Shown: piece after piece, positions 2,828-9,250 of the stretch
Numbering within the stretch: position 1 is the stretch's first letter
Layout: the number at the start of each line of letters is the position of its first letter
From: Hydrocarboniclastica marina
Lineage (GTDB): Bacteria > Pseudomonadota > Gammaproteobacteria > Pseudomonadales > Oleiphilaceae
Direction of reading: 5' to 3'
DNA length: 64,000 bases
Assembly: GCF_004851605.1 (NCBI RefSeq)
Contig: NZ_CP031093.1
Coordinates: 3,906,692 to 3,970,691 of the forward strand
Notes under the pieces: generated by a model
Database searches by the model: none
What the model saw: the letters and a program-made list of their open reading frames with translations, nothing else
Told to the model about the DNA's origin: nothing
Made by a program: the position numbers and the translations under genes

Positions 2828-4576
2828 ATGAGCAACAAAATCCAGGTTGAGTCGCCCCTTGTCATCCTCCACGGCGACGAGATGGCCCAGGTGGCGTTTG
2901 AGCAGATTCTCGACAGATTTGTCGCTGCCCACCTGAACATTAATCTGGTCGAGATCGATCTTTCCGCCGAGCACCGGCTACTGACCAATGGCCGGGCCGT
3001 TTTCGATGCCATTGAGGCACTGATGGAGCACGGCGTGGGCGTCAAAAACGCGGGCATGACCGTCAACCGCGACCAGCTTGATGAGCTGTTGGAGAGGCAT
3101 CCTGAAATCGAGCGGTCGAAGCTGGATCCGCTCGCGACCAAGTCCCCAAATGGTGCGATCCGGAAAGGTATCGGCGGTAATATCACCCGTGAAGATATCT
3201 ATTTCCGCAACCTACGCGTGCGTAAGCCGCACTGGATCGACCGGGATATCGAAGTCGACACCATGGAGAACGGTGGCATCAAGGACAGCTATAACGAGCT
3301 GTCTTCGGCCACCGGCGTGGTCAAGCTGCTGTTCGTGGGCAAAAGCGGCGACCCGTACGAGCTCCACCGCCGCGAAGTAAAGAAGGGCGATCCCTGGCTA
3401 CTGGCGACCAACAATATTGCCGACGTAAAGGAATGGGCCCACCGTTTCTTCCAGCGGGCCATCAATGAAAAACGCGACGTCTACCTGGGCCTGAAGGACA
3501 CCGTCATTGCCGGCTACGACGGCGTGATGCGTGCGGCAATCGAGACCATCTACAAGAACGAGTACCGGGACCAGTTCGAAAAGCTCGGCCTGCAGTACAA
3601 CTACGAGCTGGTGGACGCCCAGGCGGCGCGGATCGTCGCCAACCCGCCGGAGCGCGCCCTCTGGGGCGTGCCGGACAATACGACCGGCCGCAAATTGTAC
3701 AAGCTGCTCAACCAGCTCAAGCGTCACGGCATGCCTGACCGCCGGTCCCACGTGTCCATATCCCGCATGAGTGCGGGCGGCGGCGACCAGTACGGCAGTT
3801 TCAACATGCCGGCCCAGGAAGACGGCATTCTCAAGGTTGTTGTCGACGGCGTGGAAAAGCATGCGCGCTGGGTCAAGCAGGGCGACCCGATACTGCTGAT
3901 GTCCAATGATGCCGAGGCGATCAAGGATTGGGTCAGTCAGGTTTTCCGCGATGCTTCACGCAAGTACAAGGAAGTCTATTTCGGCCTGAAACGCGAATAC
4001 ATGGAGTACGATGACGTCTTCAGCGATGTTATCAATGAAGTACGCGAAGAGCTGGCCAAAGACCACACTCGCGTGCCGTCGTTCATGATCATGCGACCCT
4101 CGCGCCAGCTGATCAAGATGATCACCGATCCGCCGCGTAGTGCGCTCTATCCGTCCCAGAACCTCGACGGTGACATCTTCTCGGACATCTCCGCGGCGCT
4201 GGGCGGCAGCCTCGCCACTGCCAGCTCCATCATCGAGAGCAAGAACGGGACCATGCTGTTCGAGGCGCCCCACGGCACCGCCCACGACCTCTACCTGAAG
4301 TATCTCGAAACTGAAGGTAAGGAAGCGCACTTCAACCCGTCCGCGCTGATTTACGCGTTGGCTAATGCGCTGGAAACCATCGGCGAGCGGGAAAGCAACG
4401 AAGCACTGGTCCGTTACGCGACCAGACTCAAGCTCGCCCTGGAAGATACGGTAGGTGATGGCGTTGTCACCGCTGACCTCAAGGGCAAGACAACCGAGCC
4501 GGAGAGCGAGAAGGTGGTGGACATGCATGGCTTCCTTGATGCTGTAGCCCAGCGCCTGGGCGCCTCTGCGGCGTAA
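2828..4576 (+). CDS. icd: Isocitrate dehydrogenase, long form with duplicated clasp region
   Basis: TCA-cycle enzyme oxidising isocitrate to 2-oxoglutarate. Family residues are present: SPNGAIR near 106, GLKDTVIAGYDG near 221, LDGDIFSD near 446 and EAPHGTAHDLY near 479. At 582 aa it is about 165 residues longer than the eukaryotic-type NADP enzyme. The extra length is an internal repeat: residues 186-223 (KGDPWLL...VYLGLK) match 351-388 (QGDPILL...VYFGLK), and ANPPERALWG at 271 matches TDPPRSALYP at 433. In the coenzyme loop, Asp487 stands where the NADP-dependent enzymes carry Arg, so NAD preference is inferred. AAGGGAG precedes the ATG. The next gene begins 21 bp downstream. Confidence 0.8.
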   Translation: MSNKIQVESPLVILHGDEMAQVAFEQILDRFVAAHLNINLVEIDLSAEHRLLTNGRAVFDAIEALMEHGVGVKNAGMTVNRDQLDELLERHPEIERSKLDPLATKSPNGAIRKGIGGNITREDIYFRNLRVRKPHWIDRDIEVDTMENGGIKDSYNELSSATGVVKLLFVGKSGDPYELHRREVKKGDPWLLATNNIADVKEWAHRFFQRAINEKRDVYLGLKDTVIAGYDGVMRAAIETIYKNEYRDQFEKLGLQYNYELVDAQAARIVANPPERALWGVPDNTTGRKLYKLLNQLKRHGMPDRRSHVSISRMSAGGGDQYGSFNMPAQEDGILKVVVDGVEKHARWVKQGDPILLMSNDAEAIKDWVSQVFRDASRKYKEVYFGLKREYMEYDDVFSDVINEVREELAKDHTRVPSFMIMRPSRQLIKMITDPPRSALYPSQNLDGDIFSDISAALGGSLATASSIIESKNGTMLFEAPHGTAHDLYLKYLETEGKEAHFNPSALIYALANALETIGERESNEALVRYATRLKLALEDTVGDGVVTADLKGKTTEPESEKVVDMHGFLDAVAQRLGASAA

Positions 4577-4597
4577 TTGCGGTTTCGAGGACAGAAG

Positions 4598-5062
4598 ATG
4601 AAGCCGATACTCGTGATCTTGCTGATGAGCCTGTGTGTAGCGGTACAGGCGCTTGAGCCGGGAGACCGTCTGGAGCCCTTCGCCCTTCAGGATCAGTTCG
4701 AAGAAACCGCGCGCCTGAGTGACGCCACGGAACTGGTACTGGTGGCCAGCAGCCGGGCAGCGGCCAGTATTGTCGATGAGGCCATCAAGGCGCAGCCCGA
4801 GGGCTACCTCGAAGCGCGCAATGCGCTATACGTGGCCGATGTGTCCCAAATGCCCGGCTTTATCACGAGCTGGTTCCTGGTGCCGTCCATGCAATCGGCC
4901 AACTACCGGATACTGCTCGATTGGGACAGCGTGGTGGCGCCTGAGCACCTGGGCCAGGACGACTCCGTGCTCTGGCTGGAACTGGACCGCCGCGAGATCC
5001 TCAAGCGGCAAACCTTTACCTCCGCTGAGGATCTGCGGAAAGCACTCGAGCACAACACATGA
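4598..5062 (+). CDS. Exported thioredoxin-fold-like protein of unknown function
   Basis: About 154 aa. It begins with a cleavable-looking signal peptide (hydrophobic ILVILLMSLCVAVQA) followed by EPGDRLEPFALQDQFE, a pattern typical of the N-terminus of thioredoxin-fold proteins. No CxxC redox motif is present. The start at 4598 gives the signal peptide; a GAGGACAGAAG ribosome site lies just before it. The stop overlaps the crtZ start by 4 nt, and icd ends 21 bp upstream, so icd, this gene and crtZ may be co-transcribed. No function is assigned. Confidence 0.65.
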   Translation: MKPILVILLMSLCVAVQALEPGDRLEPFALQDQFEETARLSDATELVLVASSRAAASIVDEAIKAQPEGYLEARNALYVADVSQMPGFITSWFLVPSMQSANYRILLDWDSVVAPEHLGQDDSVLWLELDRREILKRQTFTSAEDLRKALEHNT

Positions 5063-5592
5063 GTATCACGCTGAACGCGCTGGTATTCCTGGTCACACTG
5101 GCCGGTATGGAAGCGTTTGCCTGGTTTGCCCACAAGTACATCATGCACGGCTGGGGCTGGGGCTGGCATCGTTCGCACCACGAGCCAAGGCAGGGCTGGT
5201 TTGAGGCGAACGACCTGTATGCGGTGGTGTTCGCAGGCCTGGCCATTGTGTTGATCGCCCTCGGCACGTCAGGCTGGCATCCCCTGGAATGGATCGGGGC
5301 GGGGATGACCGGCTACGGTTTTCTCTATTTTCTCGCCCACGACGGCCTGGTGCATCGCCGCTGGCCTTTCCATTATGTGCCCCGTCGGGGTTATCTGAAG
5401 CGGTTGTACCAGGCACACCGGCTGCACCACGCCATTAACACCAAGGACGGCTGTGTGTCTTTTGGCTTTCTCTACGTGCCGCCGCCCGAACAGCTGGAAA
5501 AGGACCTTGACAAGGTACGGAGCCAGCGGGCCAAACACAGGGAAGACAGGCACAGGGACAATCGTGAACAGAAGGGCGAACCAGCGGCTTAG
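5059..5592 (+). CDS. crtZ: Beta-carotene hydroxylase
   Basis: Membrane di-iron hydroxylase that adds hydroxyl groups to the beta-ionone rings of beta-carotene, giving zeaxanthin. The histidine clusters of the family are all present: HKYIMH near 25, HRSHHE near 36, HDGLVH near 94 and HRLHHA near 115, between hydrophobic segments. Length 177 aa is typical. It overlaps the preceding gene by 4 nt and faces crtB, 18 bp away. The C-terminus is a charged tail that includes a 15-bp tandem duplication (5533-5562). Its separation from the main crt operon implies independent control. Confidence 0.92.
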   Translation: MSITLNALVFLVTLAGMEAFAWFAHKYIMHGWGWGWHRSHHEPRQGWFEANDLYAVVFAGLAIVLIALGTSGWHPLEWIGAGMTGYGFLYFLAHDGLVHRRWPFHYVPRRGYLKRLYQAHRLHHAINTKDGCVSFGFLYVPPPEQLEKDLDKVRSQRAKHREDRHRDNREQKGEPAA

Positions 5593-5610
5593 GCGTCTGC
5601 CGCTCCAGCA

Positions 5611-6534
5611 TTAGACCCCATTAGGCGGCCGGTTCCAGAGCTCTGGCAAACGGGGCGACGGCTTACGGTAACGGGAGCCAAGCGCGGCCCCTGCGCCCCA
5701 GGCCAGCAAACGAAGCTTGTCCGCCTTACTGGTACTGACCCGCTCATCCCAGGCCGAAGCGCCCCTGCTACGCACCTCCAGCCCTATCTCCCGATAGACC
5801 GCCAGCGCTGTCGCAATCGCCCAGGCCGATCGCAGGGGCAACGCCGAAAGCCCTTCCCGAGCTGACTGATAGTAAGGCTCCGCCAGCGCGATCAGTCGCC
5901 CGGCCAGGCGCGCAAGGGCGGGCCGTCGGTCAGGCTCCGCCAGTGTCTCAGCGCAGAGTCCCTCTTCCCGCAGCCAGGCCGCGGGCAGATAGCAGCGCGC
6001 AATGGCGGCATCCTCGACGATGTCCCGGGCAATATTGGTCAGCTGGAAGGCCATGCCCAGGTCACAGGCACGGTCCAGCGTGGCCTCGTCCCGCGCGCCC
6101 ATGATCCAGGCCATCATCAGCCCGACAACGCCGGCGACGTGATAGCAGTACGTCAGGGTGTCTTCGATCGTGTCGTACTGGTACTCCCCCACGTCCATAG
6201 CGAAACCCTGAAGATGCTCCAGCAGGTAACGTTCAGGGAGCCCGTTCTGCTGCACCACGGCCTGCAGGGCGGCAAACGCCGGCTCGCTCATGGGTTCCCC
6301 GGCGCAGGCCCGATGTGTCATGGCTTCCAGCCTCTGCAGCACGTCGCTGTCGGTGAGGTGTCGCCCCCGACCCAGCTCCTGGCCATCGACCTGATCATCA
6401 CAATGACGACACCAGGTGTAGAGCATCATCACACTGCGCCGAGTGGGCGGATCGAACAGGCGCGCGGCCACGGCAAAACTTTTGGAGCCCGCCTGGATGG
6501 TCTGCTCCGCATGGGTCGCCAGGTGTTCGGTCAT
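5611..6534 (-). CDS. crtB: Phytoene synthase
   Basis: Condenses two geranylgeranyl diphosphates head to head to phytoene. The two aspartate-rich motifs are present: CDDQVDG near residue 45 and NIARDIVEDA near 165. The N-terminal SKSFAVAARLF pattern is typical of squalene/phytoene synthases. Length 307 aa is normal. It is the last gene of the fni-crtX-crtY-crtI-crtB operon and overlaps crtI by 4 nt (ATGA), indicating translational coupling. Confidence 0.95.
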   Translation of the reverse strand: MTEHLATHAEQTIQAGSKSFAVAARLFDPPTRRSVMMLYTWCRHCDDQVDGQELGRGRHLTDSDVLQRLEAMTHRACAGEPMSEPAFAALQAVVQQNGLPERYLLEHLQGFAMDVGEYQYDTIEDTLTYCYHVAGVVGLMMAWIMGARDEATLDRACDLGMAFQLTNIARDIVEDAAIARCYLPAAWLREEGLCAETLAEPDRRPALARLAGRLIALAEPYYQSAREGLSALPLRSAWAIATALAVYREIGLEVRSRGASAWDERVSTSKADKLRLLAWGAGAALGSRYRKPSPRLPELWNRPPNGV

Positions 6535-8042
6535 GCGTTGACCTCCGCCAGCATCAGCCCGGCTGTGGCCTTGGCGGAGCCGATGACCCCGGGGACACCC
6601 GCGCCCGGATGCGTGCCGGCGCCAACGATATAAAGATTGCTGATCTCGCGATCCCGGTTATGGGGCCGGAACCAGGCGCTCTGGGTCAGAATCGGCTCCA
6701 GTGAAAAAGCCGAGCCCAGGTGCGCGTTGAGTTCATCGCGAAAGTCCTCCGGCGTGAAAAAACGGCTGGTCACCAGATCCGCCCGCAGACCGGGAATGTA
6801 GTGCTCCTCCAGATAATCAAGGATACGATCGCGATAACGCGGCCCTTCCACAGACCAGTCGAGGGGCGCATGGCCCAGGTGCGGCACCGGTGCCAGGACG
6901 TAATGGGCACTGCAGCCCGGCGGCGCAAGCGACGGATCGGTTACGCAGGGCGCGTGAAGGTATAGGGAGAAGTCCTCCGACAGGGTGTCCTGGCTGAAGA
7001 TCTCCTGGATCAGCTCGCGGTAGCGGGGGCCGAAACAGACGGTGTGGTGCTGCAGGTTTTCAGGCACGCGCCTGAGCCCGAAGTACAACACGAACAGTGA
7101 CATGCTGAAGCGTTTGCGCCGCAGGGAGCGCGCCTGACGCTGACCCCGGGGATGCTGGCCCATCAATTTGGCATAGGTATGCACCACGTCGGCGTTGGAC
7201 GCCACGGCGTCCAGGGGAAACTGCCGGCCATCCTCCAGCACCACCGCCCGGGCGCGGTCCTGCTGTATGTCGATCCGGGCTACCGGCGCATTGAGTTCAA
7301 CCTTCCCGCCGATGTCCTCGAACAATTTGACCATGCCCTGCACCAGGGCGCCGGTGCCGCCCCGGGGGAACCATACGCCCCACTCGCGCTCCAGCGCGTG
7401 AATCAGCGTGTAGATGGACGACGTGGCAAAAGGGTTGCCGCCCACCAACAGGGAGTGAAATGAGAACACCTGGCGCAGGTGCGGGTCCTGAATAAACCGC
7501 GAAACCATGCTGTAAACGCTGCGCCAGGCCTGCAATCGCATCAGCTGGGGCCCGGCCTGAATCATGTCGCGAAAGGACAGGAACGGCACGGAACCAAGCT
7601 TCAGATAGCCTTCCCTGAACACCGCTTTGGAGTATTCGAGAAAGCGCCGGTAACCGTCCACATCAGCCGGGTTGCGGGCGTGGATCTGCCGATCAAGCTC
7701 GGCCTGATCATTGACGTAATCAAAAGGTGGCGCGTCTTCCCAGCACAGCCGGTAGAACGGCGCCACCGGCAGCAACTCGACATAGTCTGCAATGTTTTTG
7801 CCAGCCAGGCTGAACAGCTCTTCCAGCGAAGACGGGTCGGTAATGACCGTGGGCCCGGCGTCGAACGTAAAGCCCTCATCCTCGTAGACATAGGCCCGCC
7901 CACCGGGCTTGTCGCGCTTTTCCAGGAGGGTGGTCTGGTAGCCACCGGCTTGCAGACGGATGGCCAGGGCCAGCCCACCGAAGCCAGCGCCGATGACTAC
8001 GGCCCGCTTGGCCGCAGGGTTGGGCGATACGGATTGATTCAT
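6531..8042 (-). CDS. crtI: Phytoene desaturase, lycopene-forming
   Basis: FAD enzyme that introduces double bonds into phytoene; four steps give lycopene. The N-terminal dinucleotide-binding motif VVIGAGFGGLALAIRLQAGG is followed by GGRAYVYEDEGFTFDAGPT. The C-terminal flavin-contact motif reads YIVGAGTHPGAGVPGV. At 503 aa it matches bacterial CrtI length. It overlaps crtY upstream and crtB downstream by 4 nt each. The number of desaturation steps is inferred from the presence of crtY and crtZ rather than from sequence. Confidence 0.95.
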   Translation of the reverse strand: MNQSVSPNPAAKRAVVIGAGFGGLALAIRLQAGGYQTTLLEKRDKPGGRAYVYEDEGFTFDAGPTVITDPSSLEELFSLAGKNIADYVELLPVAPFYRLCWEDAPPFDYVNDQAELDRQIHARNPADVDGYRRFLEYSKAVFREGYLKLGSVPFLSFRDMIQAGPQLMRLQAWRSVYSMVSRFIQDPHLRQVFSFHSLLVGGNPFATSSIYTLIHALEREWGVWFPRGGTGALVQGMVKLFEDIGGKVELNAPVARIDIQQDRARAVVLEDGRQFPLDAVASNADVVHTYAKLMGQHPRGQRQARSLRRKRFSMSLFVLYFGLRRVPENLQHHTVCFGPRYRELIQEIFSQDTLSEDFSLYLHAPCVTDPSLAPPGCSAHYVLAPVPHLGHAPLDWSVEGPRYRDRILDYLEEHYIPGLRADLVTSRFFTPEDFRDELNAHLGSAFSLEPILTQSAWFRPHNRDREISNLYIVGAGTHPGAGVPGVIGSAKATAGLMLAEVNA

Positions 8043-9250
8043 GAGCGGGTCCTGGTAGAAGAGAGCGTTGCCAGATGTGTCCGGTGCGACTGGATCCGGT
8101 CCGGCGTCCAGAGCCGGGCGGCGCGTATGGCCTGCCCCAGGGGCACCGGTGGCTTGCCGGTGACAATGCGCAACCTGTCGGCCGGTGTCAGGCGATCAGC
8201 GTAAAAGCGTTTGATCAGCCCCGGGGATAAACCGTAGAAGCGTTGCAGCACCCGCCAGCGCTGGTCCGGTCGACCGGCCAGAAAGAGCATCCGGTTAAGT
8301 AGCCGGAAGAAGCCCTGGCGCGCCCAGGCCTGCTGGGCCTCATTGAAGGTGGCGTTAAACACAGCGGGCGCATCCATCTGCTCAAGCCCGGCAATACGTC
8401 CGGCCAGGCGCACGGCAAAAGGCAGCGAATACCCCGTGGTAGGGTGAAAAAGGCCGGCCCGCAGGCCACTGCGGGGCTGGCCGGCCGCATCCTGCCAGAA
8501 GGCGGTAAAGTCACCTGCCAGAATCAGCGGCAGCACCCCATGCTCTTCCCGAACCATCGTCCGCACCTGCCAGCCGCGCGCGCCGACATAGGCCTGAATC
8601 TGCTGGAGCAGGCGCGCATGGTCCACCCCGGGGCCATCCAGGTAATGCGTATCCTCCACCAGCAGGCGGGTGCTGGAAAACGGCAGCAGATAGACGAAAC
8701 GGTAGCCCTCGCCCTGGGCGACGCTGGCGTCCATCAGGATCGGCTCACTCAAGCCATGGGGCTGCTGCAGCTCGAGTTCCTGGCCCAGAAAGGCCTGGTA
8801 GCCCAAGGCCAGATGCGGGCTGTCACTCGGGCCCCGGCCATCGATCACCGCCCGGGCCTGGAGGGCTTGCCCGTCGGCGAGGCGCACCTGGGTCGGGGTC
8901 AGCTCCGTCACGGTCTGGTTCAACCAGAGATCCGGGCCCATGGCGGCAGTCACCGAGGCCGCGAAATCGTCAGAGAAAATGCTGGCGTAGCCTCCCTCCA
9001 AGGTACGGGCCCGGTCGGGAAAGACGACGCTGTAGCGGTCCCAGTGACAGCCGACCAGCGGCCGGACCCATTCAAGCTGGTGCTCGGTGAGGTCGGCGTC
9101 GTGAAATGACCAGGTGTGGTTGCCGCCGACGCTCGCCGCCTGCTCGATCAAAAGCAGCCGTAATTCGGGCCTCAGCTGTTTGAGCCGCAGGGCGATCAGC
9201 CCATTGGCCAGCCCGCCCCCAACCAGGATCAGATCGTACTGGCGGCCCAT
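8039..9250 (-). CDS. crtY: Lycopene beta-cyclase
   Basis: Cyclises both ends of lycopene to give beta-carotene. The N-terminal dinucleotide fold [16 protein letters not shown] and the following GGNHTWSFH segment are hallmarks of the CrtY family. Length 403 aa is slightly above the Pantoea enzymes. The C-terminus (RIQSHRTHLATLSSTRTRS) is basic and not typical. It overlaps crtX by 22 nt and crtI by 4 nt within the operon. Confidence 0.93.
   Translation of the reverse strand: MGRQYDLILVGGGLANGLIALRLKQLRPELRLLLIEQAASVGGNHTWSFHDADLTEHQLEWVRPLVGCHWDRYSVVFPDRARTLEGGYASIFSDDFAASVTAAMGPDLWLNQTVTELTPTQVRLADGQALQARAVIDGRGPSDSPHLALGYQAFLGQELELQQPHGLSEPILMDASVAQGEGYRFVYLLPFSSTRLLVEDTHYLDGPGVDHARLLQQIQAYVGARGWQVRTMVREEHGVLPLILAGDFTAFWQDAAGQPRSGLRAGLFHPTTGYSLPFAVRLAGRIAGLEQMDAPAVFNATFNEAQQAWARQGFFRLLNRMLFLAGRPDQRWRVLQRFYGLSPGLIKRFYADRLTPADRLRIVTGKPPVPLGQAIRAARLWTPDRIQSHRTHLATLSSTRTRS

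Follow-up and report, generated by a model that had tools for sequence, protein, structure and literature searches.

A ClIDH-type isocitrate dehydrogenase with a duplicated small domain and a probable pseudo-dimeric active site

The gene and its product

The window, a stretch of 64,000 nucleotides of Hydrocarboniclastica marina DNA, contains a single open reading frame for a 582-residue isocitrate dehydrogenase (IDH), the parts of which are listed in Table 1. The product matches the Pfam family PF00180 (Iso_dh; E 3.8e-21). A sequence search of the PDB returns the type II IDH 2uxq as the top match (166 bits), aligned in two stretches (residues 4–272 and 440–577) that leave 167 residues between them unmatched. 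Among the PDB matches listed (60 of 66), no close relative carries this extra segment.

Table 1. Parts of the window IDH and mapped residues. R112 and R121 correspond to human IDH1 Arg100 and Arg109, and D449 and D453 to Asp275 and Asp279.
Feature	Position in window	Strand	Basis
ClIDH-type NAD-dependent IDH, 582 aa	2828–4576	+	PF00180; same type as ClIDH
Large domain, N-terminal part, residues 1–125, with R112 and R121	2828–3202	+	type II profile; residues 81/81
Copy 1, small domain plus clasp, residues 126–280 (putative partner's half)	3203–3667	+	profile comparisons
K223 and T225, equivalents of partner residues Lys212' and Thr214'	3494–3502	+	type II alignment; 81/81
D263, equivalent of partner residue Asp252'	3614–3616	+	type II alignment; 81/81
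Linker, predicted helix, residues 281–305, aligned to the type III inter-copy linker	3668–3742	+	model and alignment
Copy 2, small domain plus clasp, residues 306–444 (putatively the chain's own half)	3743–4159	+	profiles; copy 2 model
R313 and Y322, equivalents of Arg132 and Tyr139 (T145 and K152 in copy 1)	3764–3793	+	alignment
Large domain, C-terminal part, residues 445–582, with metal ligands D449 and D453	4160–4573	+	type II profile; 81/81
Coenzyme switch, D487-L488	4286–4291	+	alignment; PMC4420465

The enzyme type, its NAD specificity, and the extra segment are already known from ClIDH of Congregibacter litoralis KT71, described as a type II, NAD-specific, homohexameric IDH of 580 residues with Asp487/Leu488 at the coenzyme switch (PMC4420465). 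In that study, activity with NADP was undetectable, the D487R/L488H substitution conferred NADP use, and gel filtration and ultracentrifugation gave a homohexamer with no dimer seen. The extra segment of ClIDH comprises 163 residues (Asn272–Met314 plus Gly319–Trp438), was termed by its authors an insertion in the small domain, and on removal left an inactive monomer; the 38 putative relatives reported in the same paper all have the Asp (PMC4420465). The window IDH resembles ClIDH in length, in the identity and numbering of the switch residues, in the placement of the extra segment, and in its first residues, MSNKI, with which the printed ClIDH primer also starts. Two traits of a ClIDH-type enzyme are thus found in it, Asp-Leu for Arg-His at the switch and approximately 163 extra residues in the small domain, where the PDB type II match breaks at 272/440. 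A third, 67–89% identity to ClIDH, belongs to the definition as well, and the likeness here is drawn from the published description of that enzyme. Identity between the window IDH and the best 80 of its 193 confirmed relatives ranges from 74 to 84%.

An earlier note on this DNA had read the motif HGTAHDL, with Asp487, as the mark of an NAD-preferring enzyme. The motif is present, Asp-Leu occupies the switch in 81 of 81 sequences (the window IDH and the best 80 of 193 relatives), and Arg-His, which the window IDH lacks, occupies it in all 20 NADP-type type II enzymes compared. NAD preference is further supported by homology to ClIDH, with its Asp487/Leu488 pair and the effect of D487R/L488H, and by the same analogy the window IDH is probably both NAD-using and hexameric. 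PtIDH1 of Phaeodactylum is likewise a type II NAD enzyme, but it is described as a homodimer with one clasp, one small domain, and a C-terminal EF-hand (PMC7460673). The novelty here lies in what the extra segment is and in the mechanism implied by it. The words "duplicat" and "repeat" are absent from the main text of the ClIDH paper, and a partial literature search found no published statement that the extra segment is a copied domain.

An internal duplication of the small domain

The extra segment arises from a duplication of the small domain plus clasp that is real and well beyond chance. The earlier note had proposed an internal repeat from short matching stretches, all of which are present: KGDP from K186 and QGDP from Q351, W203/W368, VYLGLK at 218–223 and VYFGLK at 383–388, and ANPPERALWG at 271–280 opposite TDPPRSALYP at 433–442. 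Residues 186–223 and 351–388 align without gaps with 15 of 38 positions identical. The proposal was borne out by self-alignment, profile–profile comparison, and a double match to a type II model. In Smith-Waterman alignment of residues 126–280 with 281–444 of this single sequence, the score is 139, against 29.5 ± 4.9 (maximum 57) for 2000 shuffles, a difference of 22 standard deviations. Profiles of copy 1 (104–278) and copy 2 (279–444) match each other with E 4.9e-15, a probability of 98.4%, and 30% identity over 127 columns; when either copy is compared with the N-terminal or the C-terminal part of the protein, the four E values lie between 0.0026 and 0.76. The type II model NF006156 hits the gene twice, over profile positions 2–258 and then 135–400, so that positions 135–258 are used twice, and the same double match occurs in the relatives from two genomes of the family (G011 and G021). 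The repeat is longer than the earlier note saw, with copies at approximately 126–280 and 306–444 separated by a linker at 281–305.

Predicted structures give a less sharp picture. The full AlphaFold2 model, built on an alignment of 49 of the 81 family sequences, has a mean pLDDT of 71 and a pTM of 0.53, with several active-site segments below 50, and is not a confident three-dimensional model of the window IDH. The order of strands and helices nevertheless repeats, from E155 to H262 and again from E325 to H424. A Foldseek search with this model places the monomeric type III IDH first (1itw, E 6.2e-27, 702 columns), and six type III chains precede the first type II chain (2.8e-24), with TM-scores over the query of only 0.33–0.44 among the 50 rows listed. 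With VIA-align, all 50 rows listed are type II, at Z 25–27.5 and rmsd 16–18. Copy 2 modeled by itself (52 of the 81 sequences; mean pLDDT 54.5) aligns at Z 5 to 7 with approximately residues 128–258 of human IDH1, where its small domain and clasp lie, in agreement with the duplicate fold suspected earlier. Its matches, used as support only in view of the low pLDDT, are IDH or isopropylmalate dehydrogenase chains in all 50 Foldseek rows listed and in 49 of the 50 VIA-align rows listed, the remaining one being a V-ATPase chain.

Active-site residues are divided between the two copies

In human IDH1, a prime on a residue name denotes the other subunit. The type II active site is composed of Arg132 and Tyr139 from the chain's own small domain together with Lys212, Thr214, and Asp252 from the partner subunit. 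The last three are written as Lys212', Thr214', and Asp252' in PMC12200840, and PMC4263744 assigns an important role in binding and catalysis to Arg132, Tyr139, and Lys212.

Alignment of the window IDH to 20 type II enzymes, together with copy-to-copy alignment, divides these five residues between the copies. The partner residues are intact in copy 1, where Lys212 and Thr214 correspond to K223 and T225 and Asp252 to D263; in copy 2 the equivalents are K388, E390, and, from the copy-to-copy alignment, S425. The chain's own residues are intact in copy 2, where Arg132 and Tyr139 correspond to R313 and Y322, and are replaced in copy 1 by T145 and K152. The equivalents of the metal ligands Asp275 and Asp279 in the alignment to type II enzymes are D449 and D453. 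Each mapped residue is invariant in 81 of 81 distinct sequences (the window IDH and the best 80 of 193 relatives). All of 15 further genome rows agree with the residue pattern; 13 of them are distinct, and 4 of those equal relatives already listed, so that they add 9.

Four of the five residues that a second site would require are therefore lost, and the fifth, the Lys of copy 2 (K388), is retained in 81 of 81 of the same sequences, so that decay of the putative second site appears incomplete. The loss of Asp252 in copy 2 is the weakest of these assignments, as the direct type II alignment is gapped there and places a Pro, and an invariant Asp (D434) lies near the gapped position. As to the weight of Tyr139, IDH1 carrying Y139D still catalyzes the mutant reaction according to PMC12200840, so that catalysis in this context does not strictly require the Tyr.

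A probable pseudo-dimer within one chain

The observed duplication, the division of active-site residues, and their conservation suggest, at a probability that we put at roughly 0.75, that each chain of this ClIDH-type NAD-dependent IDH, derived by in-frame duplication, forms a pseudo-dimer whose single active site is complete in itself, as in monomeric type III IDH. In the proposed mechanism, the duplication would have placed another small domain with its clasp after the first one, ahead of the C-terminal half of what was otherwise a type II-like IDH. Copy 1 would then supply K223, T225, and D263 in-chain, in place of Lys212, Thr214, and Asp252 of the partner subunit, and copy 2 would lead back into the large domain and bring R313 and Y322 next to D449 and D453, the metal ligands. 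The residues of the second site would have decayed, T145 and K152 marking this in copy 1 and E390 and probably S425 in copy 2. Because there is a single large domain, there would be a single active site, and Asp487-Leu488 would exclude the 2'-phosphate of NADP. That both copies fold onto one site within one chain is what we infer from the sequence.

The mechanism would offer a structural reason for the published requirement of ClIDH for its 163-residue segment. The segment deleted from that enzyme is essentially copy 2, and on the assumption of the same numbering, ClIDH without it would be inactive because R313 and Y322 are lost. The pseudo-dimer leaves the ClIDH hexamer unexplained. The earlier note had envisaged that two clasp-like units form an altered interface between the subunits of a dimer or oligomer. 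The residue pattern lends this idea a more specific form, in which the second unit would stand in for the partner subunit and complete the active site; the oligomer-interface part fares less well, for ClIDH is hexameric, yet a role of the two clasps in making the hexamer would be conjecture.

The alternative that survives best, though we consider it unlikely, has the same domains swapped between chains, with copy 1 completing the site of a neighbor inside the hexamer and an isolated chain being inactive. It would accommodate both the ClIDH homohexamer without a detectable dimer and the inactive monomer obtained without the extra segment (PMC4420465), and residues are shared between subunits in ordinary type II enzymes (PMC12200840). 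Sequence alone does not reveal whether the site is completed by the same chain or by another, but nothing in it points to swapping, and an AbIDH2 mutant made monomeric is reported to have stayed active (PMC5979607), which indicates that in-chain completion is feasible for type III-like chains.

Less probable still than swapping is the view of the discoverers of ClIDH, in which the extra segment is an oligomerization insert in the small domain and its likeness to copy 1 would be incidental to catalysis. This is the published reading, and the segment is required for both hexamer and activity (PMC4420465); against it, the segment repeats the small domain, and the five active-site residues are divided over both copies without exception in the 81 sequences (window plus best 80 of 193). 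The last possibility, a plain NADP-dependent type II dimer in which the tandem duplication is of no consequence or stems from misassembly, is in line with the type II large domain but can be dismissed almost entirely in light of full-length relatives in at least 80 contigs and in 10 genomes beside that of the window, the Asp-Leu switch in 81 of 81 sequences (window plus best 80 of 193), and the published kinetics of ClIDH (PMC4420465). Assembly error as such is ruled out by the full-length relatives in other genomes.

Affinity to type II and type III enzymes

The large domain of the window IDH is of type II. Its N-terminal part (1–125) matches a type II profile with E 8.4e-21 and a type III profile with 0.017, and its C-terminal part (445–582) with 2e-14 and 0.066, respectively. 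Both the large domain and copy 1 resemble the homodimeric NADP-dependent type II enzymes (human IDH1; NF006156), and residues 1–271 are 31% identical to the lead sequence of the type II profile. Those enzymes differ in having one small domain, the Arg-His switch, and an active site shared by two subunits, and the window IDH scores below the curated whole-protein cut-off of NF006156 (234.6 bits vs 335).

Monomeric IDH reportedly arose by domain duplication, as the title of a 2002 paper by Yasutake is said to state. In SCOP, residues 150–404 of Azotobacter IDH are treated as an insert (PMC544345). Type III enzymes (Azotobacter vinelandii 1itw; PF03971) have two small-domain copies in one chain and in the same order as the window IDH; they differ in length, at approximately 740 vs 582 residues, and in the large domain, neither half of which shows significant likeness to type III in the window IDH. 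All 43 type III sequences have the matching Lys in copy 1, and all 43 have the Tyr in copy 2, an arrangement also found in the window IDH. The window IDH narrowly misses the curated cut-off of PF03971 (24.8 bits vs 25), three relatives score 26.5, 25.0, and 16.2 bits, and four type II and two type I proteins give no match to this model.

By BLAST, 171 of 1296 pairs between the family and type III enzymes reach E 1e-3, compared with 0 of 320 between type II and type III; the best value for the window IDH itself against type III is only 0.005, and that of the best type II pair is 0.003. In a whole-genome search, the window IDH matches frames in three genomes (G028, G046, and G032) with E 4.4e-6, 1.7e-5, and 9.6e-4, which are called type III from their length (approximately 750 residues) and matched range. 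A type III model lists 81 of 81 family sequences (window plus best 80 of 193), 18 of them at E 1e-3 or better and with a median of 17.8 bits, along with 6 of 20 type II (2.5 bits) and 0 of 11 type I sequences. A broader type III model again lists 81 of 81 (same set; 8 at 1e-3; 16.6 bits), with 8 of 20 type II (3.9 bits) and 0 of 11 type I. Of the new type III loci, 27 of 30 passed the motif filter and 43 sequences were used in the broader comparison; L114, where the longest reading frame exceeded the matched frame, and the partial loci L126–L128 were left out. Of the type I loci, 11 of 15 passed, the window genome's own being among those dropped.

The likeness to type III sits in copy 2, which matches type III copy 2 with E 2.6e-6 and 6.6e-6 (7.4e-6 without the linker). 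Copy 1, like the large domain, resembles type II; against type III copy 1 it gives non-significant values of 0.048 and 0.059, and residues 281–330, compared by themselves, do not significantly resemble type III.

Shared or independent duplication

Type II and type III IDHs have been described as independently evolved (PMC8287583 and PMC10380307). If ClIDH-type and type III enzymes stem from one small-domain duplication, the former would represent a surviving stage on the way from dimeric type II to monomeric type III enzymes. We regard this as possible but somewhat doubtful. Maximum-likelihood trees of five small-domain sets group copy 2 with type III copy 2 (support 80 and 74) and so lean, on these sequences, toward a shared duplication. 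Independent origins are not rejected by the AU test (p 0.33 with 5000 replicates, a number below the program's recommendation, and 0.39 with 10000). In the second tree, the independent topology has the largest single RELL weight, 0.41 vs 0.29 and 0.30 for two near-identical shared trees. Both trees nest type III copy 2 inside copy 2, with support below 41 that is not to be taken at face value, and in both, type III copy 1 joins type II (support 99 and 100) and stays apart from ClIDH-type copy 1. The ClIDH-type copies are closer to each other than to type III. These points, with the lack of significant likeness of copy 1 and of residues 281–330 to type III, slightly lower the odds of a shared duplication. 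Such an event, if true, would show how an obligate dimer can become a self-sufficient chain, and would join two IDH classes that have been called independent.

Distribution and genomic context

Within the window's family, 7 of 37 genomes (its own among them) carry full-length relatives, as do 4 of 21 other genomes of the order. In the class sample, 6 of the other 368 genomes have one at E 1e-60 or better, and in a set of 299 genomes from the phylum, matches are found only in four of the window's own family. They are also found in at least 80 contigs, mainly of Halomonas and Marinobacter (best 80 of 193 confirmed stretches), by search patterns derived from the window IDH and thus directed at close kin. 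At least four of the proteins from the 10 genomes beside that of the window equal listed ones, and in four genomes of the family the proteins are identical over 570 residues to those of Marinobacter loci. Three genomes of the family (G011, G021, and G027) have both a ClIDH-type gene and a monomeric type III IDH; the window genome has no type III match.

A carotenoid cluster (a crtZ-like gene of the fatty-acid-hydroxylase fold, crtB, crtI, and crtY) lies just downstream of the IDH gene at 5059–9250. Homologs of seven neighbors (alpha/beta hydrolase, NlpC/P60, hypothetical, crtZ-like, crtB, crtI, and crtY) were sought by tblastn at 1e-10 in flanks of up to 6 kb around the best 80 of the 193 relatives, with 0 of 80 found for each, and the carotenoid neighborhood is therefore incidental. 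A 161-residue reading frame with a TTG start (4577–5062), which has no Pfam match, begins directly after the IDH stop codon.

The window genome also encodes a type I IDH (L152) with a Lys-Tyr switch, which we read as NADP-like. No match to the IDH kinase AceK was found in this genome, though a type I IDH with an NADP-like motif is present. Matches to the isocitrate lyase family are found there as well, the best of them in a frame of 532 residues.
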